Shown piece after piece: positions 9,616 to 43,505 of a stretch of DNA of 64,000 nucleotides (positions are counted from its first letter, which is position 1; every line of letters starts with the position of its first letter). The stretch lies in assembly GCA_035610835.1 (NCBI GenBank), contig CM069443.1, positions 87,728,690 through 87,792,689 on the forward strand, read 5' to 3'. The notes beneath the pieces were generated by a model. That model searched no databases and had not been told where the DNA came from. It saw only the letters and a program-made list of their open reading frames with translations. The DNA comes from Ophiura sarsii. Taxonomy: Eukaryota; Echinodermata; Ophiuroidea; Amphilepidida; Ophiuridae. A program made the position numbers and the translations under genes.

Positions 9616-10778
9616 CCCCCCCCACCCCCCCTTCCCCTCGCACCCATGATAACCCAACATCTATGGCCACCCTATCCATCACCACCACCACCAACCCCTA
9701 AAAATGATAATGGATCAACCCAAATCTCTATTTTAACCAATCAGAGCTGTTATTCAACTAACAACGCAATACCAAATATATTACGTTGTTGGAACAGCTG
9801 ATTACAACGCAATACGCTTATATATTGCGTGGTTGCTAAATGGCTATATACCAATCAGATTACAGCATTTGTATCTATTTATAGCTACTAAGTGATAAAT
9901 GTTAACACTTTCCACGCGGCAGGCGTTTGCAGACGACATTCTAAAAGTTCACAAAATGTTTAAAAAATGTCAAAATTATTGAATTTAATTACCATATTTG
10001 GATTCACCATGTGAAATGCATTGAAATAAGTACAAATATGCCTAGTATTGGTTCAGTAAATCTTGAGATAGACTTTGCAAATTCGGAAAGGATGGAAAAT
10101 ATCTGTTTTTTATATATGGGAACATAATAGCCGAGTGGAAAGTGTTAACGAAAGCAATCCGTTGGTCTGACCTGATCTACTGAATATAGTAATGGATTAA
10201 TGCGTTGTGTCAAGGCAGAATCAGTTTATTGCTTTGTTGAAAAATGTTGCATTGCTGTCAATAAATTAATCAATAAGTTTCATAACCTTATGAATATACA
10301 TACCAAGTAAGTTTCAATCAGATGTGCTATACCCGCACAATGCACATGTTTTTGAAAAACGACAATGACCCGCGCACGGGCCATATTTTTTATAATGTCA
10401 TTAGTATTTTTTTAGTTATTATTATTATCATTTTGTTTTATAAATGGTTATCAGCAAATAAAAAAACCAACAGGTGACTTAATATGCAATGAAAATCCGA
10501 GGGACAATCATTCGATTCAATTGATAATAAAACAATATTGCTTAAGGTTTTCAGCCTTAGGAAATGGAGATAAAGGGATTTTGAATGTGTGTATTTGTTT
10601 CTACGAAAAATTCATAATATGTATTTGTTTGTTTTCGTAATCGTTTTAAAAACGATCTTTTATACCTTTTATTATCACCTAACTTGCGATAGGGCGACGA
10701 TTTTCTGAGAGTTTATGTTTGGTTTTATTTCAAATGTTATAATAAGTTTTCAACTGATCTTTTCTACCAGGTCTGAAG

Positions 10779-13457
10779 ATGAAGGTTATTGTATGTCTCA
10801 TCGTATATTCACTTGCAACGGCGTGTCTATGCTCTGCGTGGCCAGAAGATAATAACGCGATTGAAAAAGAAATATACAGGCATTTTTTCAGAGAGAATGG
10901 CGCTGAAACAGACATGGAGAAGCGGGGAAGGAAACGTGGAAAGAACAAATTTGGACGTATGTTATATGATAACACACACAAAACACCTCAAACAAAATTC
11001 GGACTTTTATTTTCAATCGCCAATTTTCGGCTAATTCGTGATATATGCATAATGTGTTTCATATCAATAAAAGGCTGATGTGTTCTTCTTTTCAACGATA
11101 CTTCATTCAAGGCAACCACTTGTTTCGGTGCTTAACCACCTGCCTGTGGGGAGGTCTTATTCCAAATGTGCCAAAATCACCACTATTTCATACTCAAAAG
11201 AACAACTCTGTCGTCTGTTATGACAACTACAGTGTGGAGTGATGCTCTATTGACTTTTGAGTGATTTTAGCACATTCAGATTTAGACCCCGCTATATTCT
11301 TAAGCAAACATACAGCAAACTACAGGGTGAGTCAAAAAAACTGCAATAGTGGAAAGAAGCCATCTTGTTTTCAAAACCAAGTTGATGTTTTAATTTTTTT
11401 AAACGTTATAAGAATAACATAATTATTTGTTACTAATTTATGTGAAAATATGAAGTCAATAGCATTTTTCGTTTGCCTTTGGTGAACCTTTTTACCCATT
11501 CACCTATTTCACCCGCTTGTCCACGAAACACCTAACACATGCATAAGATTGCAAAATGCGTCTCTCATTAAAATTAAGTAAATTTGTGATATAATTGGAA
11601 TTTAATGTATCCTTTATTGTTAACATGGGAGCTAAAATAATCAATTTACATAACCCATGCTATGGATTGCTTATAATGTTCTAAATTTGAATAAAAATAA
11701 AATTATTCCAAATTTTTATTGGCGGGATATTCAAATGTGAACATGAAATGTGTGCAATTTCGAATGAAAATCACTATTCTCGTGGACAAACAAGTACATT
11801 GGGTTCACCAAAGACAAACGAAAAATGCGATTGACTTCATTTTTTCACATAGAGTCAAGAACAAATAGATCATTCTTGCAACGTTTAAGAAATTTGAAAC
11901 TTCAACTTGGTTTTGAAAACAAGATGGCTTCTTTCCACTATTGCAGGTTTTTTTTGACTCACCTGTATTTTGAACATAGGCGATTGAAAAATATTACCGA
12001 ACTTTTTTGAGGGTTTTTTTTAGCCTACCATACTGAATCTCCGAAACTTGGTTACGGTTGAATGAATGGAATTCAATCGCTTTGTGGAATCCGTTTTGGC
12101 TACGGACATCACAAATGTTGAAATAAATTACTGCAATTTCGAAGTATTAATAATCAAACTTGCAGTGAACCATCCAATCAATCACGCAATAACGATTTCA
12201 GCACTGGAACATCACTATACACATTTTATCTTTAGTATTCGAAATGTTTCAGATACGATCATTTTATGGGCTATCAAAAAATAGTCATATATTTTCAATA
12301 CATGTACAATGAGTAGAATTCTTGAAGAAACACCACTTTTTCTGGGAATGGGTCTATTTACCACTATAGATTGTTTTGTATTTTCGTCAAACATAGGCCT
12401 ACGCCTCTTTCTGTTTGTATTGTTCATTATTTTCATTGATTCAAGAAGTACATGTAGGCCTATTACAAGTTTGAAATTATATTTTGTATTTACACAAATA
12501 TCTGATTTTGAAGATATTGTTCATTTGTTTTGAGCATGTTGAGGCATTTCTCTTTTATTTTCATTGATTCAAGCAGTACATGTATTGCAAGTTTGAAATT
12601 ATATTTTGTATTTACACAAATATCTTATTTTGAAGATATTGTTTATTTGTTTTGAGCATGTTGAGGCATTTCTCTTTTTTTTTATCTGTATCTGTAAGCC
12701 TGTTACCAATAATATTCTACTTTATGCAACATTCGATTCAAAAGATTCTCAATAAATATTTTATTCTGTATGTTTTGTCCAACATAGGATGCAGAATGCC
12801 AGACGGCCGCCGGTGTGATTTGTGTAATTTAAAAATAAAGAATAAATACAACCGCAATCGCTACCTCATTTGTTCATTAGGTAAGGATATCGTATCCAAC
12901 ATCATCAATAAATCAGACATTTCACACTCGGGTATAATAGGAAAAGCCTGCATTTCGCTCCCTTCATCTGTCCACAAAAAAGAAGTTACTAAAACAATTT
13001 TTTTACTTTTGCTGTACCTCCCCTCAAATAACATCAACGCCGATTTAGCACCTGAATCCGTTATCAAAATCTGCAATCACACTGATCACTTGGATCGTCA
13101 CCATATCAACAATGCGGGACGTGGGGTAGATTTGGTCTCCAGTGGGATTCTTTTGGCATTTTGTGGATTATTTCTTACTTTTTGTGTTTAATACAAATAT
13201 AATCGAAATAATGGTTTCACAGAATCTAATGTGCCCTTTAACATTGAATAGGCCTACTCCGCAGAAACACTGAACCAATAAGTTAAGCTATGTTAACGGA
13301 CAACATTTGACGGATCCGGTAATGGACGATATTGTTCCGCACATTTCACACATTCAAATATTTGTTTTCATTTATATTGTGTGTACATTAGCATAAGAAT
13401 TGCATGCTAAATCTTATACGTTTTTTCTGCTTAACAGGATCGAATAACCTAGTTTGA
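10779..13457 (+). CDS. Locus A: secreted cationic four-cysteine peptide precursor
   Basis: Function unknown; predicted secreted peptide precursor. Proposed exons: 10771-10956 (ATG at 10779), 12788-12880 and 13438-13457, giving 96 residues. Exon 1 of the CDS follows acceptor TTTCTACCAG and starts with a signal peptide (MKVIVCLIVYSLATACLCSA), then an acidic spacer, then EKR and further basic residues. It ends at donor GTATGT in phase 1. The 93-nt middle exon follows CATAG and encodes a basic peptide with cysteines spaced C-x7-C-x2-C-x15-C, including CNLKIKNK and NRNRY. Donor GTAAGG is also phase 1. The last exon, after a T-rich tract and TTAACAG, adds five codons and TGA; it is the least certain part. 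After cleavage at EKR the mature part has about 14 Lys/Arg and 2 Asp. The 5'UTR exon was not located. A mariner-type element (11323-11965) sits in the first coding intron. Neuropeptide, hormone and antimicrobial roles are all possible. Confidence 0.75.
11323..11965. mobile_element. Non-autonomous TA-flanked (mariner-like) element in an intron of locus A
   Basis: The ends are inverted repeats of about 60 bp: left CAGGGTGAGTCAAAAAAACT, and on the other strand from the right CAGGTGAGTCAAAAAAAACC, both continuing into GCAATAGTGGAAAGAAGCCA. TA lies on both sides (11321-11322 and 11966-11967). TA duplication and the GTGAGTCAAAAA-type end fit Tc1/mariner. There is no transposase, and the element is 643 bp. 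Confidence 0.85.
12540..12665. repeat. Direct repeat pair at 12430-12540 and 12545-12665
   Basis: CATTTCTCTTTT/TTTTCATTGATTCAAG, TTTGAAATTATATTTTGTAT and GATTTTGAAGATATTGTTCA-like words recur about 115 bp apart, ending each time in TTTTGAGCATGTTGAGGCAT. This is a local tandem duplication just upstream of the mature-peptide exon of locus A. Confidence 0.65.
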
Positions 13458-13644
13458 CAAACAAGGTTATTCCCTAATTTATTGCCCGTCTTCATCTCAT
13501 CAAGCGACCGATTGAGTTCGTAGACAGATTTCAAACCGGATTTTACGCAAAAGTAATGAAGCCGTCTGCTATCATGGATGGAAAAGATTATTATCGTTGC
13601 AGTCTTTTGTGAGTCTTGGACGAAAGTAATGTTAAAGACACATA

Positions 13645-14021
13645 AAGCGTGTTTCTATTGAGGCACTGGAAAGTTAACGCTAGGTTGGAATAACTGTATT
13701 TAATGTTAAATATTTTAATCACCCCCGTTTCTACTCGTAAAAACTAAAGATATACCAGTAAGTTTATCTGCCCGTCAGACCAGTTTTCTTTACATTGTAA
13801 ACATGTTAACAAGTACACATTTCCGGGTCATGAGAAATAAGCGTTAAGATTTATCGGGTTGCCGTTTCTACTATGCAAGTTAACGGTAATTACCGTTACC
13901 AAAGCAGGTTTTTGTCGTTAGAAAACCTAGCGAAAATTAACGTTATTTGCCTGTTTCTACTGGACGTAAAGGCCGGTTGGTACCGTTAATTACCATTAAG
14001 TTTCCCAGTAGAAACACGCTT
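13645..14021. mobile_element. 377-bp miniature inverted-repeat element
   Basis: Ends AAGCGTGTTTCTATTG and, from the other side, AAGCGTGTTTCTACTG. ATA lies on both sides (13642-13644, 14022-14024), consistent with a 3-bp target duplication. The interior is rich in GTTAACG/TACCGTTAAT words and has no ORF. It lies about 190 bp downstream of the proposed locus A stop. Confidence 0.75.
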
Positions 14022-14182
14022 ATAGATGCATGAATAGTGGTTATCCATGTAGAGGCGGAACGGACAATAAAAGGGATTCGCACCCGACCTATTCTACATT
14101 CAATAGAGTTGATGCATGACGTCTAATTCAAAGCATGTCAATAGCATGAATGTGTATCTTCTTTCTGTTAATCTTAGACATA

Positions 14183-16019
14183 CACTGCAAAAAGGTTGCT
14201 TAAATATTTACTCAACATTTTACACAACGTTGTTGAAGTATGCAACCGCTCAACAGTTGCGTAAAATTTACCCAACACCCATGTTTTCACCAACAGTTGA
14301 ACAATTCCAGTTACTCAGCAGTTGCACAATTTTAATTACACAACAGTTGGGTATTATTAATTAACCATTTGTTGGGCATTTTGTGACTGTTGCTTAATTT
14401 GTGAATTGTTTTCATTATATATTGAGCATTTTTGTATAGCAACTGTTGCTTAATTTATCAAATGTAGCCATATGTTGGGTATTTTATTTGTGACAAGTTT
14501 TTATTATATATTGAGCATTTTTGTATAGCAACACGAGGTAGGCAAATAATGTGAATTCTGGGCGATGCAGCAGAGCTACAGACATCACTTCCTCCCGGTA
14601 GTGAACCGGTAACTTGTAATGGGAATTATAGGCGATGCAGCAGAGCTACATGCACTATTCCCTTTTGGTAGTGAATTTGTAATTTATTTTAACATGTAAT
14701 TTAACTAGGCCTATACATATGATATCTGACATCTCTTATCAATGGTGTTATTTACTGTAAACGTTTGCCAAACGTATTCTTGCTATCTGGGTATGAAGGT
14801 ATAAATAGTCCATATTATATAATACATAAACATATTTATGTGATTCTTTTGGTGGAAAATAGATCACATGACATGAACTATTCAGTATATGTCCATGTCG
14901 TGTATTTTTTGGCTATAAAAATCGACTATTCAATATTCATCGCTAGCGATGTCGCAATAACACCTCTGAAATGATATTCATAAACAAATATATGTCAAAC
15001 AAGGATGGCAATTTTAAAATATTTTGTCAGTGTTAGCGATTTATTCCGTTTCGAATGCCAAGACAGAATACATTTTTGTGGTCCTGCGCTGCAAAAAGGT
15101 TGCTTAAATATTTACTCAACATTTTACACAACGTTGTTTAAGTATGCAACCGCTCAACGGTTAAAGGAAGGGTCCCGCAAGTACACAACATTGAGCATTA
15201 TTTGTTAGAAAAATAATTATCGAGCCGAAGTTACGTAATTATATAGAACAAAACAACATACTAGTCACAAAAATGAATAAAAACTGCCATCACTCAACAT
15301 GCACTTTTTAAAATTCGCGGCGATCGAAAGTCCCGGTGTCGATGACGTCAAGGGTATCGGTGCTCAAATTGGCGCATGTGCATTGTAAAATTATGACATC
15401 ATCGACACTGGGACTTTCGATCGCCGCGAATTTTAAAAAGTACATGTTGAGAGATTGCGGTTTTTATTTGTTTTTGTCATAAGAGTGGTGTTTTGTTCTA
15501 TATAATTACAAAAGTTGGGCTCGATAGTTATATTTCTAACATATAATGCACACTTTTATGCTTGCGGGACACTTCCTTTAAGTAAAATTTGCCCAACACC
15601 GTTAGATAACATGTTTTCACCAACAGTTGAACAATTCTAGTTACTCAAAAGTTAGGCAATTATATTCACTCAACAGTTGTTCAAGTATGCAACAGCTCAC
15701 GAAATTGGCTTTTTTGGACAACAGTTGCCAAAAATTCACATGTGCGCGTAACTTGCATCAAACTGTTGCGTGATTGTCCTCAATGCTCATGCAACAGTTG
15801 CCAAAGTGGAATATTTTACGCAACATATTTTAGCAACAGAAACAGTTTCCACCAACATTTTAAGGACATTGTTTCGACGAATTGCTCAACGCTGGGGATT
15901 TTTTACTTTTATACAACGCCTAACTTTCTTCATATATTGAATGAATTTTAATCAACACGTCAACCAACGGATGATAAAAGTACTTTTAGCAACGTATTTT
16001 AAGCAACCTTTTTGCAGTG
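14183..16019. mobile_element. 1.8-kb TA-flanked inverted-repeat element with nested insertion
   Basis: The ends are CACTGCAAAAAGGTTGCTTA on the left and the inverse TAAGCAACCTTTTTGCAGTG on the right, with TA on both sides (14181-14182, 16020-16021). The interior repeats CAACAGTTG, ACTCAACA and similar words many times, and an internal copy of the left end is at 15090. A second element (15175-15577) is inserted inside. No transposase ORF was seen. The TA duplication suggests Tc1/mariner-type mobilisation. Confidence 0.8.
15175..15577. mobile_element. 403-bp foldback element flanked by TTAA, nested
   Basis: TTAA precedes (15171-15174) and follows (15578-15581). The arms are long and imperfect: AGGAAGGGTCCCGCAAG faces CTTGCGGGACACTTCCT, and AATTCGCGGCGATCGAAAGT faces ACTTTCGATCGCCGCGAATT. 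TTAA duplication is the piggyBac/Kolobok signature. Only a short asymmetric centre separates the arms. Confidence 0.85.
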
Positions 16020-16021
16020 TA

Positions 16022-16640
16022 GTTAAGTGTTCCCGACAAGATGGCTGCTAAGTGCTAATCCATTACATGGATAACATCTATACCAAATCACTTTAGTTTC
16101 AAATCACCTACCTTTGCTGCGATTCGCTTACAAGAAGTTCTTAACACAAGGGAGGGCACCTGTTTGAGCCTACCGAAGTGAAACGCCCCGTGGAGTATTA
16201 AATACAAAAAGACACTTTGTTTGGTTATGCGGTTCGATATATAGATATTTTATTATACTCTATACGCAAATAACTAAATAGCCTACGAATAAATATATTC
16301 ATAGAAATGTATCGGTGTATACTTCTATCATTTCAAATAGTAATACACTCCCGGAAATCTCAATCGTGCAAGGTTTACATAATTTGGTTCACCAGTTTCT
16401 CGCTTTTTTAATTTATTCGCGCGAACAGTAATCTCTATGATCATGAATATAACCATATGGGCTAGCCATTGACTTATTGAATCTAGAGTAACTTTGACAG
16501 TTGGTTATCATCATGATTACGAAATAAGACTGAGATGGATTATATACAATCATCTTCTATGTAAATATTATTTCGGTGATAGTATCTGCAAGTCATTTGT
16601 CAAGGTGAATGTCTCCTCAGTCGGCATCATCCGCGATTAT
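16022..16640. other. No supported gene between the TA element and the last exon of locus B
   Basis: AT-rich sequence with no convincing exon on either strand and no repeat unit recognised. The 3' UTR and polyadenylation site of locus B (minus strand) may lie here. The word AATAAA could not be assigned with confidence. Confidence 0.3.
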
Positions 16641-16649
16641 GAATCCACA

Positions 16650-19600
16650 TTAGAAGGTGTCTGTTAGCTGCATGTTAGCTGTTAAAGAAAAGAGAAATAA
16701 GATCCAATCATAATTAAAACATTAAAATATGAAAGGTAAATCATTATGTTTATTTTCCCTTCGCATATCTTTCAACAATTATGAAAGGTAACCTTTAATT
16801 AGATAATTATAATTGATTTCAGGGGCATTTGAAAACATTTGTAACTGAACAGTTGGGAAGGTAACTTCAGTTTAGTTTTACAATTTAAAAAATGGAAATT
16901 GAACCAAATATGCCAAAATGGAAGTTGGAAATAAGTTGTTAAAATGTATAACGAATTTATAAAGTATCAAACACACCAGCTATGTCTGAATTACCTGTTA
17001 TTTGTTCTGACCTGACCGACGAGGAAAAGGTTATTGATGAACAAGTGAGATATCTTGATTTGTTTGTCTGTTTTGTTTGAGCTACATGTATTGGAATACC
17101 GTATGTTGACAGAAAAGGGGCGCGGTTTATGTTTAAGTTTCGTGCAATTTCTTTTTGAGTGTGATGTTCACACACGCAGTGTACGAAAAATATATGATGT
17201 TGTTATGACCCTGGGTCACCTATTGTCTCGTCCTTGGTGCTGTAGCTCGAAATTCAGAAAAGTCTACTGATTAATAGGCCTTTTAAAAGTATGGCAATTG
17301 GCTAACTTTGCACACGTTGTTTTCATCTCATTGGTCTTACTAAGATCGATGTACGCCCTCTATTATTGCATATTCCCAATTGAAACAATGTCTTAGCCTA
17401 CTATTATGCCTACCTGAAGACGTATGGATAACCCCTTGGAGAGTGGGGGGGGGGGGGGGGGGGGGGTTAACGACAAGTAGATGTTAAGTTATCCTTTTAA
17501 AAATGGCAGATTTTTCTGCCCGATACGCACTATATATTATGAGACGATAATATGGGGCGGTGCTTAATTCATACATTTAGTGCGCATGGTTATCGCGTTA
17601 AGATGTTCAATTGCTCTCTATACAAAGTTGCAGACGTATGCGTTGTGCGTTTAACACAGATATGCAATGTGTACGTTTTAGTAGAGTCATTTCCATGAGA
17701 TCCGTGACCAGTTTTAGGATACCTTTTTTTCTTGATGGATTTGTCAAGATGGACTAATTTTAAGAAAAATGATCTCCTATATACCCCCCCCCCCCCCCCC
17801 CAGAAGTGACGGTAATCGTTTTTATAGCGCAAAATCCAAACTGGCCGCCATACAGGGGCCCCAAAATTCAAATGGCTTCAATTAAGCTAAAAAGCATACC
17901 AAACTGTTCAGCTGAGCACAAGGATTCGGAAAAATATAGTTTGCCCTATCTCCGATGTTTGGTTAACGAGTTATGGGGTAAAACGTGAAAAGGTCGTTGA
18001 CCTTTACATACGGGGTCAACATTTAAACTAGCTCCGATCTTGAAAAACAATATCTCATATTGTTCGTATAATCACAAGGATTCCAGAAATGGTGGGGTTT
18101 TTTTGGCCACAGGGAATAGTTTGTGTGGGTCAAAAGGTCAAGTCAAGGTATACTACCCGTACGGAACCTGACCTTTTGACCCCTTTATAAGGTACAACAG
18201 ACACTCTAGGTGGTAAAAACTATTATTTCTGACATCCTTGAGAGCAAGTTTAAATGTTGACCCCATGGTCAAATGTCAACGACCTTTATACGTTTTACCC
18301 GATAGCTCGTTAACCAAACATCGGAAGAGGGGCAAACTACGGTATACATTTTCCGAATCATTTCGGAATCAATTTGGTATGCTTTTTAGCTTAATTGAAG
18401 CCATTTAAATTTTGGGGCCCCTGGTATGGCGGCCATTTTGAATTTTGCGCTATAAAACCGATTGCCGTCACTTCTGGGAGGTATATAGGAGCTAATTTTT
18501 CTTAAAATTAGTCCATCTTGACAAATCCATCAAGAAAAAAAGGTATCCTTAAACTGGTCACGGATCACATAGAAATGACTCTACTATTTGCTCGGAACGC
18601 AATTATTCGAAGAAGGCAAGTTGGTAAACAACTCGTTGGATTTGCCTATTTTGTATAGGGGAAATGTGTTGTTGTTTGATTAAAATAAATCTAACAAATA
18701 TGATAAACTAAATAAGAATGAGAATAAACAGGCGACCATACAAGACTCCAATGGTACAGCCTATACGTTACAAGACCAACGTAGGCCTATATAGCCAAAC
18801 AGCTGCGAACTCTATTTTATTCTCTAATTAATCAACTTACTTCCTCCACACAGCATATAACGATTCCTGTTCATCTTGTTCTTAATCTTCAAGTTGCATA
18901 TTTGGCATTTTACACCTTGTGGGGATCTGCATGCTAAAAAGATGAGATGGTCAAACAATAAATTAGCAAATAAACTTGAATTCTAAACTAAACCTGAATG
19001 ATAAAAAACAAACAATCTTTTCTCTGACCAACATGATAAGCCAAACTTTGTGTATGTTAAGTTAAAATTTTCCAAGGGAAGTATAAGTAAGCACACTAAT
19101 GATTCTCCCATCGGGGGTTTCGATCAACATGTCCACCCGGTTTGCAACTGCTTTGCGACCTGAATGTTATTTTAATACATTCAAGTCCATTATATGCGAC
19201 TAAATACATTGTAAAAAAACCCCACACTTTTGTACAAATTCACTTTTTAACATTAAAAAGTGTTGTCAACCGATTTGGAGATTTTGAGTGATGAATCTAT
19301 TTCAGTTCATTAGAAGTTCCTAGGTAAAATGAATTTCAAAAAGGGAAATATCTCTGTTACAATATTGTGAGAACACCCGTTAAATGTTTTTATATACAGA
19401 CAAGTGCATTGATGAAAGCACGCAATAGGGAAATCACAACAAAGCATAAAGCATCCAATCAAACATAATAGGCAAGGAGGATCAGATTTTTTCAGTTCAT
19501 AGAAGTACTACCAGCTATTTTGATAATAAATTGATAGAAAACCCTTCCCTCCGTATCTCAGTAGAGTCTGCAGTGGTTGGGGTGTGTACAAATATTTATT

Positions 19601-22009: not shown

Positions 22010-24874
22010 GTGTTTTTTTATATTATTATTATTATATTTTGTGTCAAATATCGTCCTGTCATGAAATTGTTGTTGAGGGAAGTTGAATACGTACATGTAT
22101 GGTCGCTCTCCCAGGTATGGGGTACATTAGACCTTTAGGAAGTTGATCAAATGTTATACCTTTGGGATCAGGAACTTCTTTTAATGGAGTGTCCATCACG
22201 AACCCGATCACGAAAGGTACACATAATTATAATTAGGTTATCTTTGAAAAGTATCATCAAATTATACTGAAAACATTTTTTTCTTCTTCTTTTTGTTGAT
22301 GCCGGCGCACCAACTATTTATTTGCATTTGTCATACAGGAAACAATAATATATATGAACATTTAGTTTTAATATTCTCTATATAATAAAGTACAGTATTT
22401 AATTATTGTCTTTCCACCTTTTATATAGACCCCATTTTTTATTGTGTTTATATAATCTTCCCTTTCCAATGGCAATATGATTTTCAACTTGGAACATTAA
22501 GTGTCATCAGATGTCAAGGTAAAATATGGATCCAGTTTAATTCATACAAAACTTCTTGAAGGCACATTTTCAGGTTTTCATATTCATTATTATTAGACAA
22601 GTACCATGTCATCATTGTCACGTTGTATGATGATGAGCGTATTGTAATGCAAGTTGGTTGGTTGTTTTAGACATGTTCATATACTGTATTAATACCAACA
22701 AATATATGCTATGATCAAATTTATCGTTTGAATATCATACAAAAACAAAGGTATCACAAATTATTTTTGCTATGAATGATTAAGTAACTTTGAGGCCTGA
22801 GGGCCCGAAAAAAAAATGTTCATATTATCATTCCATGATATAATTGTAACGTTCTTTGACACACTTTGGCAGCAGTAAAATCGAAATGCATGTCGGTTAT
22901 CATAACAAATGATGAGGGAGGATCACGGTCTTTTTCGGAGAAATATACCTGTAATAACTTTCATGTAACAATTAGACGCAGTTTCTTTTACATCTGGATC
23001 CTTTAGGTATGAGAGATTTGCAATGGACCGAAGGCATTCACTTACAAGGTACTACGCCTAAATTTAATAAAACAACAATTCACATATCTACCTAAGAGTA
23101 TATGTATGTATGTAGGATAACTCCAATGATCAACTTAGCCCGTTATCCAATTTTCAGATTTTTACATAATAGTGTTGGTTCATCCATTATGGTTCACAGA
23201 CTGTCAGTTCCACGAAAATCAAAATATCTTTGAAAAGATTTTAAGAATAGTACTATTAGGCCTTATACAATAATAAAGCGACATAGTTTATCCATTTAGT
23301 TTATGTGATATATATTTCATAAAAAATAAACCTTGGGTAATATGTGTTTGTTTGCCGAATAATGACGCATTAGTCGCAATCACTTATTTTGGTACACTTA
23401 ACACGTTTTGAGCATTATTTGGAGATGTAATGCCGACTGGCTAAAAAGACTACTACACGACGAATATATGAGCGACGTGAGTTCGAACGAATCAATAGAA
23501 CTCTTTCTTTTGAACAAAAGACACAGCACTGAGCTTACGGTATTGTATACACGTAGCAGTACTGGTTGAGTCGCATTAAATGTGTATGACTTAAATTCTC
23601 AATATGCGGTAAAATGATAACCATTTATAATGCTATGAACACGCAATATTACTTTATCAATGCTATTCAGATTTCACCTGAAGATAGCTAACATTCACAT
23701 CTTTCAATTAAACATAGAAATTACCATGTTTCTTCGGATTCCCGCGTGTCAATTAAAACGGCAAGTGATGCAAAATGTCAAAACCCGCTTTATCGTGCAT
23801 AAATTATGCAAATTATATGTGTCAAATAATATTTGAAATTTGAATTATTTCAATACAGCTCTTAGCTTTGTTCATTTCAATATCCAGGAAACCAATAAAT
23901 CCCAACTATTTCCGTTGGTGTTTTATAGTAAAATTGGGAAAAATTGCATTTTCGACATATGCTAAATATCGCAGACTTCGCTCAAATAAACTGCAAACGG
24001 TGTACTTTAATTTCATACCAATAACTCCTGGTAGTACTCTTAAAATATTATCTCGTTAACTAGAAGGCTTTCGAGTGCCGTCCTCTTAGCCTATAATCAA
24101 TGAGTGACAGGCGTAAACATTGGCTATTACAAGGCATTGTTATTAACGGCATTTGTCCGTTTTGTAACAATGAACTATTTCCCCATTGGCAAAGTTGACG
24201 GTGTTTGGAAACATTTGAGTATGAATTATGTAGATTATAGAACATATTTTCGCAACATTCTTTATTCTGGTAAAATATCTTGAAGTGGCTAATCCATATC
24301 AGCTGATTAGAAGCCATGTATGAATTTGAATGTTATCATTTTAGTTATACGTGGGATAAGTCTAATCTATATAATCTGTGTACATTATACAGATGTTATG
24401 TTTTTATATCTATGCACCTTAAAAATAATGCTTTAAAAACATTATCAAGTGAAAGTATCAATTTATCAATAAATCCCTAGAACCCCTATTTCATGAAACA
24501 CAGTCCCGAAAAGAAAGTAAACACATAGTGCGTCTGAAGCCAAGTGACGTGCAATGCGTTCGGATATTTAACCGTTCCTTATAGATTTGTTTAATATCAT
24601 TTAATATAATTTTATCTAATATCTATACTTCTAGTTAGTTTTATAAAAAAATGTACAAAGAAACTGTTTATTATGTTAACTTACGTCCAATTTTTCGTCT
24701 TCCTCTCTTCTCAAAATCGACTGTTTCCCCTCTCTTGTCCATGTTCTCCATTTCAAAATACTCATAGAAATCCTGGGCAGTTAGAGCTTCATCCGCTGCG
24801 TCATCCTCCCATGAAGCGCCGCACACGACAGCCAATAGCACGGAGAAAACAATAAGACATACTACCACTTTCAT
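16650..24874 (-). CDS. Locus B: secreted cationic four-cysteine peptide precursor
   Basis: Function unknown; the best-preserved family member. Coding exons on the minus strand: 24882-24685 (ATG at 24874-24872), 18933-18841 and 16678-16650, giving about 103 residues. A 5'UTR exon lies at about 25835-25785. The first coding exon has a signal peptide (MKVVVCLIVFSVLLAVVCGA), an acidic stretch with ALTAQDFYEYFEMENMDKR, a second FEKR site and then RRKIG, ending in phase 1 at GTAAGT. The 93-nt exon, after CTTTTTAG, encodes PCRSPQGVKCQIC followed by NLKIKNKMNRNRYMLCGG and ends in phase 1 at GTAAGT. The short last exon, after TTTCTTTAACAG, gives about eight codons and TAA and is less certain. From the second KR site to CGG there are ten Lys/Arg and no acidic residue. 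The second coding intron (18840-16679) contains a 0.9-kb foldback. The upstream in-frame ATG at 24916 is intronic, because acceptor ACGTACAG falls between it and the chosen start. Confidence 0.8.
17445..17466. repeat. G22 homopolymer tract
   Basis: An uninterrupted run of 22 G lies in an intron of locus B. Its exact length should be treated as unreliable in an assembly. Confidence 0.9.
17679..18586. mobile_element. 0.9-kb long-arm foldback element in an intron of locus B
   Basis: The left arm starts TAGTAGAGTCATTTC and the right arm ends GAAATGACTCTACTA. Arm-to-arm matches continue for roughly 450 bp: GGATTTGTCAAGATGGACTA faces TAGTCCATCTTGACAAATCC, and AATTAAGCTAAAAAGCATACC faces GGTATGCTTTTTAGCTTAATT. 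The centre is near 18130. Such a transcript would fold into a very long hairpin. The TIR type was not assigned, and TA-like flanks cannot be separated from the end itself. Confidence 0.8.
18934..21950. other. Intronic DNA of locus B, no further gene
   Basis: This is inside the large first coding intron of locus B (24684-18934). Words of the type CACTCTCGAGAGAG and GTCACTCCC occur at 20260-20400, with a partial recurrence near 20610-20640, so an old repeat is likely there. No exon with the family signature was found. Confidence 0.4.
21957..22036. repeat. (ATT)n microsatellite
   Basis: Interrupted ATT repeats with two GTG/GTTTT breaks, inside the large intron of locus B. They may be a LINE-associated (TTA)n tail, but no LINE body is visible next to them. 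Confidence 0.8.
22140..24049. other. Intronic DNA of locus B, nothing recognised
   Basis: AT-rich, without repeats that I could align and without open frames carrying known motifs. Confidence 0.35.
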
Positions 24875-25784
24875 CTTGAAATCTGTACGTAAAATGTTAC
24901 AAAAACATACCAGCATTCTAAAGGTTTTTTCTCATTTTACTAGTTTTGATATTCATCAACGTGTTTGTTTTCAAAGACACGAAAATATTCTACACTATAG
25001 GCGAAATACGAATGGACATGTAGGATCTTATCAAACATTAAACACATTTTTAAAATAAGAATACATGGAAATAGAAATGTAAATATATTATGGAAATAAA
25101 ATACCGGGACAAAGATTACCCTATTTATTATTATTATTTCATTTGGTAATTATTATCTTATTTATTATTAATATTTTATTTGGTAATTTGGTAATTCTGC
25201 AATGTAGATATATTACTGGTGTAACGATTAAGACAATTATTTAAACCGGAGCTAGTCATATCAATTAAATTGTTTTCTTCATAAATACACTTTTTATTTG
25301 ACATTGCAATTTGTTTTATCGGAGATTTAAAAAAACGTTAAATTAATTGATTGGACACTCTTTAGAAACGGTTCATACTGCTAATAATATGGATTTGATA
25401 AAAGAGATATCTCAATTACTTTAAGTTGCAAGGTTTTTCTATGACAAGTTCATAACCCTAAAAATCCAAGTCTAGCCTGCATGATATAACTTTATAAGGG
25501 CGAAAATAACGAGGATTAACTAAGTGTTGTATGGCATCTCAAGACACAGAATTCCAAATTCTTCAATATATATTATCTATTAAATTTGGTTTACAACTAA
25601 AGATGAATCGAAAAATGTGATTGCAAAAGTATTAACATCTACCTAGATATGGATATACCTATGCGTAGTATATGGATAAGATTGCATAGCAAAAGTATTA
25701 ACCGCAATTAACCGCTGTACACAAAGTAGCCTTAAAATATTACGAGCACAGTAAATTAATATATGAGTTCATTTTACCACTCAC

Positions 25785-25866
25785 CTTTATTCGGCTGCGA
25801 GATCCTCTTGTTGATAATTCAGATAAAGATGTGATGCGACATAAGATTTACCAGGTCATATTTATA
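25785..25866 (-). promoter_or_regulatory. TATA box and untranslated first exon of locus B
   Basis: Read on the minus strand, TATAAATA lies at 25866-25859. About 30 nt downstream an exon would start near 25835. It ends at 25785 before a consensus donor GTGAGT (25784-25779). The intron would run to the ACGTACAG acceptor 8 nt before the locus B ATG. Locus C has the same TATAAATA, short-exon, donor layout, which supports both. Confidence 0.65.
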
Positions 25867-31603: not shown

Positions 31604-31607
31604 TTAA

Positions 31608-33860: not shown

Positions 33861-33866
33861 AATCAG

Positions 33867-33957
33867 TATAAATAGGCCATGGTTTTGTGTGCAGGGGAAA
33901 TATCTCTTGCGGACTCGACGACTACTTAGCTCCAAACAGAACCGAACCCGAAAACAG
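33867..33957 (+). promoter_or_regulatory. TATA box and untranslated first exon of locus C
   Basis: TATAAATA lies at 33867-33874. A first exon would start near 33898 and end at 33957 before donor GTACGT (33958-33963). The intron would end at TTTCGTGCAG (35660-35669), 8 nt before the locus C ATG. The layout is the same as at locus B. Confidence 0.65.
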
Positions 33958-34772: not shown

Positions 34773-35145
34773 CAGTGGCGTAGCTCAGGGGGGGGGGGGC
34801 AGGGGGGGCAAATGCCCCCCCCTGACGAAAAAATCCAATTTGAGCCCCCGCCCCCCACCCCTCTAAAAAAAAAAAAAGGGGTGAGAAAAAAAGGAAATAG
34901 GAAAAAATTGAGACAAAAGACCGATGTTATTAGGCAAAAAGAAGGCAAAATTGTAAATGTAGTACATTTACTGTGCGATATTTTTTGACTGTGCGATATT
35001 TTTTGGACTGTGCGAAATTTTTTGAGCCCCCCCCCCACTTACGTGAAATTCACGAGGTAAGTGACTAGAATTTTTTGGGGGGCAACCTTTTACGAAAATT
35101 TTAGAAATCTTGCCCCCCCTGAAAAAAATCCTAGCTACGCCACTG
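34773..35145. mobile_element. hAT-type miniature element, copy 1
   Basis: The ends are CAGTGGCGTAGCT and the inverse AGCTACGCCACTG. A perfect 8-bp target duplication TTCGTAAT flanks it (34765-34772 and 35146-35153). The interior has G- and C-runs, AAATTCACGAGGTAAGTGAC and GGGGCAACCTTTTACGAAAA. CAG-type ends and 8-bp duplications are hAT hallmarks. It lies in the first intron of locus C. Confidence 0.92.
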
Positions 35146-35677
35146 TTCGTAATTGTACAACTTTAGGTCTTACAACATGACACGAGCCTGTAATACGTGC
35201 ATTACAGTTTTGAAGTACAAATAATGGCCTATACGGGATGTATGTATTGTTTGTATGAGTTCATGGTTATTTTTCCACACATATGTATGTCTGGGTTGAT
35301 TCATAGACCCTCTGAATACGTGAAAATGGAGAGCCTAACCGATTTATAACATTTGGCCTAAAGGTTTCCTGGTCTTAATCAGGACGCAAGTGACCCTCAA
35401 TTGTTATTGGATTGGGGTGTTCAGAGGTTTAATGATTTAAATATTATGAATACTAAAGATTACGTATTATAAACTCAGATTATCAATCATTTTAAATCAT
35501 TATTTGGGCTTGATTTAAATCAGAAGATATGCTGAAGATATTTATACGATTTCGATTTCGATTTCGGAAATCAACATCCAAGTATACCAAAAATATACCC
35601 TATATTTCTTACGGTATATATTTAATCGTTATGAAAACGTACAATCATTTATTCTTTGGTTTCGTGCAGATATCAAG

Positions 35678-35788
35678 ATGAAAGCTATCGTGTGTCTTAT
35701 TGTTTTCTCTGTGGTAATGGCTGCCGTGTGCGGCGCTCCGTGGGAGGAAGAGGATGAAGGCGACACCTTAAGAAGGATATTCTGGTAG
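35678..35788 (+). pseudogene. Locus C: truncated member of the four-cysteine peptide family
   Basis: The 36-codon frame begins with the family signal peptide (MKAIVCLIVFSVVMAAVCGA), then PWEEEDEGD and TLRRIFW followed by a stop. The acceptor and 8-nt leader match loci A and B. Compared with B, the LTAQDFYEYF spacer and both KR sites are missing. Where B has a GGAC-GTAAGT junction, C has GGTAGACTC in a different frame, so the usual donor is lost. Two readings are possible: a decayed copy, or a signal exon spliced elsewhere. An alternative weak donor GTGGGA at 35740 is in phase with the locus D exon at 42857. Confidence 0.6.
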
Positions 35789-35799
35789 ACTCATGCAGG

Positions 35800-37180
35800 G
35801 GGAGGAACACGAAGGTTGGCATATTTGGTTCATATTTTGTATATTGAGTTAGTGCCCCAAATTATGCCCAGTGGTGAAATAAAAAAATTCTCCGACCCCC
35901 TTAGGCTAAGATTCATGACCCCCCTAAATGTGGCCCCCCTGGAACGGCAATTATATAAGAAAAAGTAATAAAAGTAGTACATTGGATGAGTCCAAACGAA
36001 CAGAAAGGTACTGCCAATGAGAATCAAACTTCTCATGAGGTAAATTAGTACCCTCCGCTTTGTAAATATGATAAGATGTGTGAAAAAAGTTATTGGGTTA
36101 GTCTATTTTTTCAAAGGGGTGTTTTCCTATTTTCGTGTTTTCAGGAAACTTTAAAAAATGCAATTATTGGACAAAATTTGATTAAAAAAAACAAAACTTT
36201 CATATTTTTTAATTTTTTAAATTTTAACATATAATCTATTTATATCATTGCTTAATCAAATTTAAAAGTCAAAATAATGGTATCTCCTCTGATTCAGTAT
36301 AAACCAACCTCAAAAAGACGAGCAGTTTTGTAAAAGTATGAAAATGCACATTTGTAATTATGCTGAGTTTTCTACAAATGGTTTGTGTAATAGTCTTTTT
36401 TATTCCAATGCAACTACTCCTTGGACACAAAGTAGGGCCAACATAGTCCCTTTATGTCATTAACTATTGTTTATAGGTCAAACCATTTTATTGGAGGGGT
36501 GTTTTTGTCAATACATTATCTGAATTGCACTAAAATAGATGCCTTGTTGATCGTTAAGTTAAATAACGGGTTGTTTTCTCGGGCCACCCACTCAAATATA
36601 CCACTACCCCTATACCACTCACCCCACACCACAACACCCCAACCAACACAACCCACTCCACCACCCCTTAAAACAGAGTGTCAAACAACAGGGTTATGTT
36701 ATAGGGAGTAAACCCTAGCGCTTTACATCACGCATCAGGGTGAGCTATTGCTGATCAGCCGAAACTATACCTGTAAGGATTATCACTGAGTAGCATCATC
36801 AGCCAATGTTTTCAACACCCTACCCCACCCCACCCACCCCACCCCACCCCACCCACCCCATCAAGAGATCTACTCAAAATTCACCAACCCACTTTTTTCC
36901 CTCCTGAAAACATGGTATTAAAAGATTATTTGGTGAACATTCTGCAAATGGTAACAGAGAGTATACTAGGTAGTTGAAACACACGTGAGACTGAAATCCG
37001 ACTCCAAGGCCTGCAAGTTCTGTTCTGCAAGTCAACTAAAGTCGTTGCAAGGATTAGATTACTTTTTGACGGAAGGTGGAGGGGCCTTTGACACTTTGGA
37101 TGACATCACAATAGCCTGTTAAATGCAGGTTTTGAAAGAAAAAAGTGTGATGAAATAAAAAGGAAAAGAAGGAAAATTTT
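35800..37180. other. No supported gene; CA-rich low complexity
   Basis: CCACC/CCCCA-rich low-complexity DNA occurs at 36585-36665 and 36815-36862. Frames here, such as 36454-36711, are products of that composition. Confidence 0.4.
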
Positions 37181-37182
37181 AT

Positions 37183-38987
37183 TTGAAAACTGATTACAAA
37201 ACGCACATTAAAAATGAAGATAATTGTCCTGATCACTGCTCAAAGTATGCCCTTACCGATCCAACAAGTCCCGACTATGATGAGAGCTGTGATCATGACC
37301 ATGATGTACAATGTAACAGATGTTATAAACTAGAGAGGGTACTCGCCGATGTCAAAAATGCTATTCAAAGCTCCACGCTGCCAGAAGATGAAGTACAACG
37401 TCTTCTTTATGAGTTTGACATTGCAAAGTCAGATGTTGGTGCATGGAAAGCTCATATTCTTAGAACATACAACCAAGAATCCGCAAAACACGATGTTCTA
37501 AACTCAATGGATGACAAAAGCATCATGCTTGTCATGGACTGGGCGATGAGAAGTTTTAACCTACTAGATTTAGAGAGCAAATGTCTGATTTTCTTGGAAA
37601 ACGTGGCCGTAGTTGGCATGTAGCGTGTGTGATCGCAAGATCAAAGATTGATGGCAAATTGGAAGTAGAGTGTTATGTACACCTCTTTAATTCTTGTACT
37701 CAGAATTGGTATGCTGTTTCATCAATCATTGAAGATGTTCTGAAACATGTGAGGAATCAAAATGAAGATGTTTCTAAAGCGTTCTTAAAGAGTGACAATG
37801 CTGGCTGCTACCATAGCAGCCAGCTTCTGTTAGCCTTACCACAAATTGGTGAAAGAGTTGGAATTACCATTGCACGATATGATTTCTCCGACCCACAATC
37901 AGGGGAGGATATTTGCAATAGGAAAATTGCTCCAAAAAGTGAAAGCGCATATCCGTAGGTTTGTCAATGAGAAGCACGATGTAGTTACAGCTCAAGATAT
38001 GAAAACAGCTCTAGAGTCCAATGGAGTAAAAGGCTGAAGTAGATACTTCAAAATCACCAGGGGCAGGTGAAAGTATTGAAGGAGTGAGTTTGTTGAACAA
38101 TTTCGCATATGCATGATATGAGAAGGAAGGTATCCGCTGCTGGAAAGCTACAACCAGGGAGAAGGAAAGGTTATCAAGCCCACTCTAGAGAAAACCCCTG
38201 TTATGACTGAGCTAAGAGTGTTGAAGCACAACATCAAGAAACTTCAGCAAATGGACATGTTGCTGAACAGGGTTTCAGTTCTAAGCCTATACTATTTTTT
38301 TGTAACGAACCAGGATGTATCCTTTCATTTTCCTCTGTTGATGATGCAGAACGTCATATGGACACAGGTACCCACACAAAGGAGGAAGAAAAGGACACGT
38401 CATATGACAAAATCAAGAAAAGGTGGGAAATGAAAGTATCCGAGTTGCAGATGACACGTGAACAACAAGCACCTCTTCAACCATCACAAGCATCAATATC
38501 AGATGAAGAACAAGAGTATCAAAGACAACACGGATGGGCTTTGAAAGTTATAAAGCGGGCACCGAGAATTCAAGAAAAGGTGATAAACTATCTAACAGCC
38601 AAATTCAATGAAGGGGCTCGAACCGGAAATATAGCAGATCCAGCTCAGGTCGCCATTAAAATGCGTCACAAACAGGATTCATTACACAACCTGGAATTCT
38701 TGCCACATGAATGGCGCTCTGAAAGACAAATTTCAAGTTTCTTCGGATGTTTGTCTTCACGTCAAAGACGGGCTGAATTAGACATCCTGTTAAGTGCTGC
38801 GGAGGTAGAAGAAGATATGTGGGATGAGGAACACAACCGGAGAGAAATAAGAAATGCCGTTTTCGGTACACTTGATTTTGGACACCCTTTAGTTTACCAG
38901 GAGCATGATTTATGCAAACAAGCTAAAAAACATAAACTCAACCAATTCAAGCTGAAATACTTAGAAAAAAATGTGTGTCCAATGTAA
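37183..38987 (+). pseudogene. Broken DDE-transposase-like gene with zinc-binding motifs
   Basis: Successive open frames on the plus strand fit one ancestral protein. Piece 1 (37183 to about 37590) has paired Cys/His (CPDHC, CDHDHDVQCNRC) and LVMDWAMR. Piece 2 (about 37590-37930) has LKSDNAGCYHSSQLL and ARYDFSDPQSGED. Piece 3 (to 38037) continues with VKAHIRRFVNEKHDVVTAQD. A later piece reads FFCNEPGCILSFSS then ERHMDTGTH, a C2H2-type finger, and runs on to 38987 with a charged tail. At least three frameshifts and in-frame stops at about 38037 and 38125 disrupt it. The acidic residues in MDW and KSDNAGCYH look like a DDE/RNase-H-fold transposase, but I cannot name the superfamily. No terminal repeats were found. 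Confidence 0.6.
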
Positions 38988-39397
38988 GATACACTCGCTC
39001 TATATAATTTCCAAACAAGTATGTCTTTTACACTCGGCTAACACCACGCAATGGATGAAAGTGAGTGGGGTTCGAATCTCAAATGAAGGATAAAAGTTAC
39101 CAAAAGAACAATACCAAATATACATAATGATTTAGGTCTCTTATTAAACAGTATTATTAAAACAAACACAACATAATATCAACATACATTTATATGCAAC
39201 AAAAGAATAACAATTCATTGGTACAAAACAATACATCAAAGATCAAAACACAGTTCCCCCAAACGATGCGTAGAATCTATAGACGCATAGACAGACGTAA
39301 CGTAGAACACAAACTTCGCGAGAATGTCCATCACTGGGTAGCTAGTCCAGGAGAAATACTCTGCGGATGGTACTACAGGGAAGGTGGGGCTTGAAGA

Positions 39398-39695
39398 CAA
39401 GAGAATCGGATAAGAAGCATCGGTGACCTTAGTGAAGAAGTCTGAGGGACCTTTCGATGTCTGGTATTCGCGGTCGCTGTCCATTGTGAAACTCTTTAGC
39501 CGTTTCTAGGCCAGACGCACATCGTCGAATGAAGACATACGCACCATGACAAATTACGTCATCCTTGTCCATCTCGTCCCGACATACCTGTAGTGGTATA
39601 AACATCACATGTACAACAATGTAAACAAGAACTTGTGGAGTTCCATCTCGACAATGTGGACTGAGATGTAATACAGATCTTACTGAAACTTAATT
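39398..39695 (-). other. Unassigned minus-strand open frame overlapping a duplicated segment
   Basis: A minus-strand frame without an obvious start runs from about 39695 to a stop near 39398. It includes CRDGTPQVLVYIVVHVMFIP and DKDDVICHGAYVFIRRCASG. A second frame (39484-39236, 82 codons) overlaps it. Neither matches a family I know. Part of the first is doubled at 40281-40383, so it may belong to an unrecognised repeat. Confidence 0.25.
39585..39687. repeat. 103-bp identical direct repeat (copy 2 at 40281-40383)
   Basis: The two copies, starting TACCTGTAGTGGTATAAACA and ending ATACAGATCTTACTGAA, show no mismatch. They are 696 bp apart. Read on the minus strand each ends ...CACTACAG followed by GTATGT or GTAAGA, which resembles a 5' splice site. 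A recent tandem duplication or the ends of a small element are both possible. Confidence 0.85.
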
Positions 39696-40383
39696 AACTA
39701 AAGACACAGTTCAGAAACCAATTTAAAATACTACATCAAAACGTAAAATCTAGAGGTTGAATTAACTGATAGCGGTGTAAACTAAAATCGTATTATGATC
39801 ATATTATATTCCTGACAACAAAGCACTTATGACCATTCATTATAGTCAACCAAAGAAATAATATGAAACAACAAAATAATACTTTCAATAGCTCAATAGG
39901 CACATCTTTTACACACTAAACATGCTAAAATCAGTCATCCCTGATCTATGCTCTAAAACGCCAAATAGATCAGGACTATAAGTTAATCAACTTCTACAAC
40001 ATAAAATACTAAATTAGTAACAACTGTAATAGTCTTCTAATACAACATTAGGACTACATACATTATTCTAACAACATGATCAAAGTGAATATCCAAGTGT
40101 AGTAACTTCCGTACAACCACATATTGCTCTCATAATATTTAGAGATAACATGCGTGCACCTAAACCAATGGTAAATCCAACATTATAGCATCATACTTGG
40201 ATAATCACATACATTATATACCTACATTAGTATTTAAACAACATTCACCATTTACTATATAACAAAGTGGCATAAGCTCTTACCTGTAGTGGTATAAACA
40301 TCACATGTACAACAATGTAAACAAGAACTTGTGGAGTTCCATCTCGACAATGTGGACTGAGATGTAATACAGATCTTACTGAA

Positions 40384-42856
40384 GACTGGTAGGGTTTACA
40401 AGTCTATATATCTGATCCCAGCACAATGTAGTTTTACAGGTGTACATTCCAAGAAAATGATGTCATATCAACAGGAAGTGCTTAACCCAAAATATCAGTA
40501 TAACAGCAAACACAAGCGGTACGTGTGTTTACTGAGAAAATCTACGTCACAATATTAGGCCTAAGACCTTGTACAATAATAAGCAAGGCGAAAAGGTCAT
40601 GACATGGTAACAGGTCCCATTCATAAATAATAATCAGCTTTTATAGAATAATACACATTTCATGTCTTGAGAATGTGTGACCTCACAGATGATATTTCAA
40701 TAACAAAACAAATCTAGGAATTGTGTGGGCATTTCTTCCACATAATCACTTGCATCATCTAGAAAACATAATAGGCAACAACCTTGTACAGGTTAAATCT
40801 TAAACTCTTATGTTTCGCTTTACATCAGTGAGGGTTAAAATCATCAACACTTGGGGAAAGTACATATTACTATCTATTTTGTATGTTTTTGATAACAGAC
40901 AAAAATCCGAAAAATTAACTCCAAATTTGCCAAAATTAGGGTGTGTTACACCAATTTGAAATTGACCCAGTTGGAACAACATCAAGGAAAGCTAGCTTCA
41001 TTAAGCCTCTGCAGCTATTCATCAACAATGTCCATGCTTTCAAGATAATTAGTTATATTGTGTTACACATTTAGCATTTGGCTTATTCTTCAGAAAGTGA
41101 AATGTTATTTTGTGCTAGCTACAGTTCCTAATCTGTACAAGAATTCTTCTTTGATATATAGGAAGAAAAACATTTGTAACTTTGCGCAATATTCTTGAGA
41201 CCACTATTTCTGGCTCATGTATGTTATGAGTGATATAGTAATGAGTACACAAATGGCATCGCAGTTAAAATCTGAATCTATTGTACTTCTATATCAATCA
41301 TTTTGTGGCCTTGCTTTTGGTAACAAATGTAGCATTTGATATGACTTTTTTTAAATGTTAGTATAAATCATTTGCTCATTCATGCATGGATAATAAAACA
41401 TCAACATTTGTATTATGAAAATGATTCTCGAGTATCTAAGGGAATTACCAACAACTCCGTTTGTGGTCTAATTTTTTTTACAAAATAATTTAGCTTGAAA
41501 CAAAAAAGTTTCACCTTCTAGAGATTGAGCTATTTGATAATTATTTGTGCATTATCAAACAATATACATTTTACTATCACCAGTTAAATGTTGAACTCAA
41601 TTATTATGGTTATTAAATTTTGTTTGATTAATTTAAGGGTTGGATGCATATGTAAAACATTGATTGCTGAGTACTGACAAAGCAAGATATAAAGTACGGT
41701 ACAATTCATGAAAATGCACAAAGAGGGTATAATAGGAACACAGAAAAGGTGATAAAGGCAAATAAACACCCTCTTATATAATGGAACGCTCTTAATTTGA
41801 CTATAAGTTTTAGTCTGCTCATTAACAATGCTCAGATTAAAGAATGAATACTGAATATGACTACTTAATATATGTTCTACCTTGTACAATTACCAAGCTT
41901 TATTAAATGCGTCAAACGTAAAACCATTATAGGACATACACCCCTACGTAATAATGGTATCAACCTTGTATGGTCATGTGTTTGAGCCAGCATACAATAA
42001 GCATACCCATGTGTATTCACATGGTTCAAGTAAAAACAACTAGTGTATTATTCGGTGCCACATTAAAGTTTAAAATGCTATGTAAATTGTGAATTCCCTA
42101 TAAAAATAATGGAATAACCCACTTTTAAGAGGGTTAAACCATTTAAAATGGTTACACGAGTGAGCCGGTCAAATGATGAGTTTATTGGACTGAGTGGGAA
42201 ACTAAATGGGGAACAATTTGTTTGACAATGGTTCAAAACAAGTCAACATGGAAGGGGAAATGGGCATTAAATACATTATAATATTTGCTAAAAATACAAA
42301 AGTGTACCTTCATTAATGTCAAGTGATCAAAATACTCATCATGGCACCATTATTTGAAATGCATTTTTATAAACATTAACAATAGGGTAATACATGGCGC
42401 AAATATTTAAAAAAAAAAGAAGATATGAACATTGTTTTTTTTTTAATGAAAAACGGTGAAAATCACACTTTTGAGATATTTCTAAAACCATGAAAAGTAG
42501 CACCACCCTTATTCTTCATAATGGAACATTCCAAAATAATTTTTAGTTGTTCTGTGTATTTTTGAATAGTAGAAAGATGTCACATCAGATGTACGAAAAG
42601 AGAAAGTGATTAAAGGTACCTTCATTGTTATAAACATAGCAACACATGTCTCCTAAATTCAATATTATCAAGTTTTCAACGGGGATATTTTAGCCTCGTT
42701 TTGAGGGGCTAGTATATCTCCCTAAGGGGGGTACCTGAGAATTTTTCATACTGATATTCATGAATGCTTTGAGGAACACAACAAAACTTCATAGTATGAG
42801 TAAAAAATGCTGACCCCTCTTTTCCTGGATTTTGCAATACTGCATGGTTTTCTCAG
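40384..42856. other. No supported gene
   Basis: AT-rich DNA. The 101-codon minus frame at 41584-41889 has hydrophobic stretches but no start context, domain or splice support. No promoter for locus D was found here. Confidence 0.35.
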
Positions 42857-43505
42857 AATGTCTGTGTTAACAGCGCAAGACTTTTATGAGTATTTTGAAG
42901 TGGAAAATATGGACATGGCAAATAGAGCGGCAGACGCTACTTTAGTTGAGAAGAGAGCAAGGCGGAAAGCTGGACGTATGTTCATTTGTATTTAAAATAT
43001 CTTGAACATAGTTTTCCTCAATTAGATATTTGGGAACATGCATGAATATTATAGTCCCGCGGGCCAAAGCAATCCACTAGGCGTGTCTATTTTTAAACGT
43101 GCGTCATCAGATTAAATATCGCCTGTTGTACGTGGCAACATTGCAATATGTTCATACCTTTGAATCCCTGTTTTTAATACATAAGTTTGTCCAGAGATTA
43201 TCACTTCTTGTGTTATTGGTTTTGGTTTACACAGTGGTTTCACGTCGGAGGTATGTTCTTACCGGTACGTCCTGCTTCAATACAAAGGGACTTTTAAAGG
43301 ATAAATTAGACCTATTGATTGACACTAACATTAATTATAGGCCTAGTGGTCACAAGAATAGTGCCTACATTTGACAAGAGTTTGTTTCCCTTTGTTCTCT
43401 TTGAAATAACAGCGTGTAAAACCCCCTCAGGTATGCAATGCCAATTATGTAACTTGAGGATCAAGAACAAGAACAACATGAGACGCTATGTGCTGTGCGG
43501 AGGGT
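42857..43505 (+). CDS. Locus D: propeptide and mature exons of the four-cysteine peptide family, 5' part missing
   Basis: The first exon (42857-42975) follows TTTTCTCAG and contains LTAQDFYEYFEVENMD, nearly identical to locus B, then VEKRARRKAG, ending in phase 1 at GTATGT. The second exon (43413-43505, exactly 93 nt as in A and B) follows GAAATAACAG and encodes PCKTPSGMQCQLC, then NLRIKNKNNMRRYVLCGG, ending in phase 1 at GTAAGT. From the KR site to CGG there are nine Lys/Arg and no acidic residue. No signal-peptide exon lies directly upstream. ATG at 42858 is in frame but would give a leaderless product. Either D is a 5'-truncated copy, or its leader is supplied by the locus C exon 7 kb upstream (frame-compatible). 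No terminal exon could be chosen. Confidence 0.6.

Follow-up and report, generated by a model that had tools for sequence, protein, structure and literature searches.

The 64,000-nucleotide stretch of the Ophiura sarsii genome analyzed here (C3:87728690-87792689, referred to below as the window) carries three genes for secreted, cationic four-cysteine peptide precursors, which we name A, B, and C/D after the loci A, B, C, and D of a preliminary description of this DNA. That description, made from the window sequence, had proposed such a family, in which the precursors carry an acidic spacer with KR sites, and our results support it. All of its motifs were found at the places and in the frames that it gave: MK-x-x-VCLIV at 10779 (plus strand) in A, 24874 (minus) in B, and 35678 (plus) in C; LTAQDFYEYF and ENMD, confined to B and D among the loci; and C-x7-C-x2-C-x15-C, with CNL[KR]IKNK and RYx[LI]C, at 12790 (plus) in A, 18931 (minus) in B, and 43415 (plus) in D. 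The acceptor AG 8 nucleotides (nt) before the ATG in A, B, and C is directly visible in the sequence. The cysteine pattern occurs three times in the six-frame translation of the window but not once in 40 first-order Markov resamples of it. The observation is that of a real gene family, represented here by three genes, one of them broken by an inserted element, instead of by four loci. The features are as follows, with window positions and the basis of each in parentheses; L numbers denote copies elsewhere in the genome, and UTR stands for untranslated region.

10771-10956, plus strand: gene A exon with 8-nt leader, ATG at 10779, signal-like start, acidic pro-piece, EKR, and basic stretch; donor GT at 10957 (sequence; the L027 counterpart exon has 95% protein identity)
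12788-12880, plus strand: gene A 93-nt cysteine exon, C-x7-C-x2-C-x15-C (motif; genome matches)
18841-18933, minus strand: gene B 93-nt cysteine exon (motif; genome matches)
24685-24882, minus strand: gene B exon with 8-nt leader, ATG at 24874, signal-like start, pro-piece, KR sites, and basic stretch; donor GT at 24684 (sequence; L021 to L023 at 94-95%)
25785-25866, minus strand: gene B possible TATA box (25866) and 5' UTR exon ending AAAG/GTGAGT (consensus only)
33867-33957, plus strand: gene C/D possible TATA box (33867) and 5' UTR exon ending AACAG/GTACGT (consensus only)
35670-35771, plus strand: gene C/D signal-pro exon, first half (locus C), ending in TTAA (alignment to B and L026)
35772-42866, no strand assigned: inserted element, 7,095 nt between two TTAA (comparison with L026; broken transposase-like frames)
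42867-42975, plus strand: gene C/D signal-pro exon, second half (locus D), starting with TTAA; donor GT at 42976 (alignment to B and L026)
43413-43505, plus strand: gene C/D 93-nt cysteine exon (motif; genome matches)

The coding exon of both B and C/D is preceded, 1 to 2 kb upstream, by a sequence resembling a TATA box and a short exon that ends in a donor. A 221-base stretch upstream of gene B is 89.7 to 96.4% identical in L021, L022, and L023, with surroundings that are similarly alike, and a 241-base stretch upstream of gene C/D is 99.6% identical to L026 and 93.4% identical to L025, again with surroundings that are also alike.

Loci C and D are the two halves of one paralogue. Gene B and C align over 92 bases with 84% identity, and the alignment of B with D, which begins after another 17 bases, covers 115 columns at 73%; TTAA stands both at the end of C (35768-35771) and at the start of D (42867). 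Elsewhere on C3, the copies L025 and L026 have an uninterrupted frame with a single TTAA at that point. Separate alignments to L026 cover 541 columns of the C flank at 97.2% and 835 columns of the D flank at 99.8%, and the two overlap in the four bases TTAA only. Because the frame of L025 and L026 is unbroken and the flanks overlap solely in TTAA, C and D are one gene, and the alignment of B to C and D, together with the unbroken copies, rules out four separate loci. Read from these alignments, an element of 7.1 kb has inserted into the signal-pro exon of a recent copy and duplicated its TTAA target site. The insertion itself is recent, since a near-identical paralogue without the element, L026, lies 96 kb from C/D. 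The element is probably a TTAA-type DNA transposon (piggyBac- or Kolobok-like). Broken transposase-like frames lie within it at 37183-38987, none of three of its reading frames matched a Pfam family above the cut-off, and local alignment gave no long inverted repeat between its ends, where a short imperfect similarity can be seen by eye. With a recent duplication 96 kb away and one copy split by a transposon, the expansion illustrates clearly how genes for secreted peptides arise and are lost.

The family extends well beyond the window. A genome search with the cysteine exon of B as the query (expectation value [E] up to 10) gave 49 cysteine-exon matches on four chromosomes (34 on C8, 11 on C3, 3 on C9, and 1 on C12), a number that counts exons and not whole genes and is a lower bound (at least 49). 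The largest array holds 15 copies within 400 kb on C8 when gaps of less than 300 kb are joined. The DNA of all 49 copies was inspected, 3 in the window, 20 in 9- to 10-kb pieces, and 26 in 301-base pieces, with exon 1 being sought in the 20 longer pieces. Every copy is open and has four cysteines, with an AG placed 2 nt ahead of the first cysteine codon and a GT 4, 7, or 9 bases past the last one. The exact C-x7-C-x2-C-x15-C spacing is kept in 48 of them, the exception being L066 with x6 in the first loop, and the residues C1, G6, C9, C12, N13, R24, Y25, and C28 are invariant among these 48; no tryptophan was seen in the inspected cysteine exons. In a tree of the 48 exons, the copies group mostly by chromosome (5 changes versus a least possible 3), with weak inner branches. 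On C3, the block L030, L027, L023, and L026 (87644266-87675806) is repeated as L029, A, B, and C/D (87723804-87772104) with order and orientation kept, and a partial copy with L021, L025, and L022 lies at about 85.31 to 85.45 Mb. As judged from the sequence, the repeated four-gene block is a segmental duplication.

The reading frame of the cysteine exon is under purifying selection, the strength of which is not given by the present figures. For 48 copies (L066 excluded), the mean proportion of synonymous differences (pS) was 0.60 and that of nonsynonymous differences (pN) was 0.21, with a ratio of the means of 0.35 across 1128 pairs that are nonindependent and in which many pS values are saturated; pN was higher than pS in 5 of the 1128. 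Half of the pairwise differences (13,950 of 27,858) fall on third codon positions. Among the genes of the window, the pS and pN values of the cysteine exon were 0.88 (near saturation) and 0.32 for A and B, 1.00 and 0.32 for A and D, and 0.41 and 0.20 for B and D. The cysteine exons of A and L027 are identical across the 84 bases from the first to the last cysteine, while the 1.3 kb directly downstream has 82% identity; gene conversion could be another cause of this identity.

Sequence of the exon 1 type lies upstream of the cysteine exon in 19 of the 20 fetched loci, L039 having none. The C9 copy L033 has a stop codon within the signal-peptide region and an intact cysteine exon. Precursors were assembled for 18 of the 20 loci and for A and B, and in all 20 the order is a hydrophobic signal-like start (judged by eye and by scripted hydrophobicity counts), an acidic pro-piece, EKR, a basic stretch, and the cysteine exon, so that a signal-like start and a dibasic site ahead of the peptide are present throughout. 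The mean charge is -9.1 for the pro-piece and +8.55 (range, +6 to +12) for the mature part without a tail. The basic stretch closes exon 1, and the first cysteine codon lies 2 nt into the next exon at a phase-1 junction; the predicted mature region would hence span two exons, with the basic N-terminal stretch at the end of exon 1 and the four cysteines in the cysteine exon. A third exon encodes a tail on C8, GKGRKI plus a stop in four of five aligned copies and GRGRKI in the fifth (L039), and the tails in the two copies compared on C9 are GGGSRTIVA and GGGSKTIVD. The candidate tail exon of L027 has a counterpart in the window near gene A, but a short deletion there, at about 13600 to 13630, removes its acceptor, and gene A may end otherwise or be impaired. 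Short-tail scans gave no convincing shared candidate for exon 3 of B and C/D, and blastn of B against D gave nothing above chance beyond the three exon stretches. Read-through of the cysteine exon as the usual end is disfavored by the tail exons on C8 and C9 and by the database protein P0003 (see below); in B-type copies, it would give GGSKLIN plus a stop, a possible end for these copies.

A protein search with the B precursor alone gave no match, whereas a profile of eight precursors (A2) found 12 proteins at E up to 1, and a second profile (A4) found 11 at E up to 10. Among proteins, the family's best match is one from Amphiura filiformis, labeled "uncharacterized." P0001 and P0014 of A. filiformis have cysteine regions that are absent from the 49 copies, which makes that count a lower bound. 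The sea urchin relatives, P0007 and P0015 of Lytechinus pictus and P0013 of L. variegatus, are also "uncharacterized." P0007 matched A2 at an E of 2.4e-4 before it had entered any query, and the profile comparison of P0007 with A2 gave a probability of 97.4%. The Lytechinus proteins have MASK, an acidic pro-piece, a KR site, a basic stretch, and four cysteines, with a spacing of x8, x1, and x14. P0003, filed under "Salmonella sp. s51228," can be read without interruption from MASK through the cysteines to GSAGKGRGI; a sister protein, P0002, is on a contig of only 841 bases. It is most likely that the two represent a contaminating echinoderm transcript, probably from a brittle star, and a bacterial origin is not credible. 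The continuous reading of P0003 supports the joining of exons 1, 2, and 3 of the C8 type, and the cysteine part is joined to the signal-pro part in P0001, P0014 (predicted), and P0003. A transcript across the exons, proposed earlier as a check, is seen in this way for relatives only, and the joins of A, B, and C/D are predicted from sequence. P0004 to P0006, P0008 to P0012, and P0016 to P0018 resemble exon 1 reading frames, and P0019 matched at an E of 3.2.

The members have database names such as "uncharacterized" or hypothetical Salmonella protein, or none. Nothing in Pfam or NCBIfam lay above the cut-off (for example, DUF333 at an E of 0.022 for A). Among the papers listed, none had the family as its topic, judged by title, opening of the abstract, or passages. 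The main text of the A. filiformis genome paper contains neither the word "peptide" nor the word "secreted," and its passages on expansion name other families (PMC11310086). The earlier view of the family as unrecognized therefore agrees with "uncharacterized" relatives and no Pfam match above the cut-off but has to be qualified by a layout that matches the one reported for the starfish peptide PpCrAMP, a named antimicrobial.

PpCrAMP, from Patiria pectinifera, is probably the closest known peptide, the likeness being to its reported description and a lead only. It was reportedly described by Kim et al. in 2018 (Dev Comp Immunol 86:203) as a cationic peptide of about 38 residues with four cysteines and an amidated C terminus, and its gene is reported to have an intron that separates a positively charged portion of the mature peptide from a cysteine-rich portion. 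The genes here agree in the cationic charge, the number of cysteines, and the place of that intron; in contrast, they number dozens of copies, and an amidation-type tail has a candidate in L027 only. The acidic pro-piece, the basic cysteine-rich peptide, and the arrayed copies together are the usual picture of host defense peptide genes. We consider it rather probable that these genes belong to a large family of cysteine-rich peptides secreted by echinoderms, one best read as antimicrobial and of the PpCrAMP kind. During secretion, the acidic pro-piece would neutralize the mature part, which is basic; cleavage after EKR would be by a furin-like protease or a prohormone convertase, and the freed peptide of about 40 residues would fold with two disulfide bonds and bind negatively charged microbial surfaces.

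PpCrAMP is given as a predicted beta-hairpin in reviews, which state no number of cysteines for it and one of which calls it the sole known sea star antimicrobial peptide (PMC11767717, PMC12466427). A passage of a review table names starfish, sea urchin, and sea cucumber peptides (PMC12466427), and section 4.6 of a 2025 review lists no antimicrobial peptide for brittle stars (PMC11767717). The strongylocins of sea urchins likewise have a signal, a pro-sequence, and a cationic cysteine-rich mature peptide (PMC4805251) but differ in having six cysteines, three disulfides, and a brominated tryptophan (PMC4805251, PMC11767717); their six-cysteine pattern was not found here, where all 49 copies have four cysteines.

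Several observations weigh against the antimicrobial reading. The two profile searches with sea urchin matches returned no named starfish protein, the AlphaFold model was poor (mean predicted local distance difference test score [pLDDT], 56.9; predicted template modeling score [pTM], 0.22), and charge compensation between the pro-piece and the mature part was not found in the 20 precursors (r = +0.36). The conservation of the mature part is strong and would also suit a receptor ligand. The candidate GRK tail of L027, which would permit C-terminal amidation, was picked from 66 tail candidates by an amidation-motif filter; the C8 and C9 tails and the end of P0001 (CGGKF) have no clear amidation signal. 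The strong conservation and the L027 tail candidate speak for a reading that the preliminary description had also offered, that of neuropeptide or hormone precursors in which KR cleavage frees a disulfide-bonded receptor ligand. The signal-like start, the dibasic sites, and a layout kept in sea urchins agree with it, as do two predicted amidated four-cysteine peptides of crinoids, AnjapPCNP6 and AmedPCNP7, which are secreted and resemble the present ones by description (PMC9793003), and the brittle star Ovnp18, with at least four cysteines in its C-terminal region (PMC5627052). The 49 mature-exon copies, however, contrast with the four eclosion hormone-like precursors of A. filiformis, the highest number for an echinoderm peptide type in the passages seen (PMC5627052). 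These are also secreted cysteine peptides but have six conserved cysteines instead of four and far fewer copies (PMC5627052). Apart from the crinoid pair and Ovnp18, the passages seen of ophiuroid, crinoid, starfish, and sea cucumber neuropeptide surveys describe no such family. We prefer defense to a neuropeptide role because the copy number and the charge layout fit secreted defense peptides better, and we regard neuropeptide or hormone precursors as unlikely.

The 49 exon copies, many of them arrayed, favor an antimicrobial or another secreted effector among the options named earlier, and arrayed expansion of a secreted cationic scaffold is not specific to defense per se. A multicopy effector of another type, such as a gamete, mucus, or adhesive peptide, nevertheless seems improbable to us, as no sequence feature is specific to such a role and the defense layout is the simpler match. 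That the cysteine exon is instead a piece of a C2H2 zinc finger and not of a secreted peptide was suggested by a ZFAT finger in the PDB, which the sequence matches weakly (E = 0.0038). Neither the PDB alignment nor the 18 aligned peptides have histidine ligands at the corresponding places, a PDB search with A2 gave no chain at E up to 10, and with a further profile (A5) zinc fingers reach only E values of 0.81 and 2.8; moreover, P0001, P0014 (predicted), and P0003 carry both the cysteine part and a signal-pro part in one chain. With the two histidines after CxxC absent and the profile matches to PDB lacking or weak, we reject a zinc finger, the chance of which is very slight.

Returning to the antimicrobial reading, the interest of the family lies in its size in the brittle star and its reach into sea urchins, and it is probably a variant of something known. 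If the peptides are antimicrobial, they would be a large innate effector family for brittle stars, which regrow arms from open wounds, and starfish, brittle star, and sea urchin peptides might be joined as one family. More tentatively, and with somewhat greater doubt than confidence, we suggest a phylum-wide four-cysteine family, unnamed beyond at most one starfish peptide, whose brittle star expansion of at least 49 exon copies on four chromosomes would be the main cysteine-rich defense arsenal of the class.

The window also holds elements outside the family. Between the exons of genes A and B lie a palindromic repeat with inverted arms of about 350 nt and 85% identity (17679-18586) and a self-inverted stretch of 420 nt at 81% (15161-15581). 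Repeats at 48646-49219 and 50775-51308 yield long repetitive open frames (GRNGYWTKWLLDEM-like) that are probably not genes. On the minus strand at 58304-60795, a reverse transcriptase fragment above the Pfam cut-off and an endonuclease-like fragment below it are probably parts of a non-long-terminal-repeat (non-LTR) retroelement.

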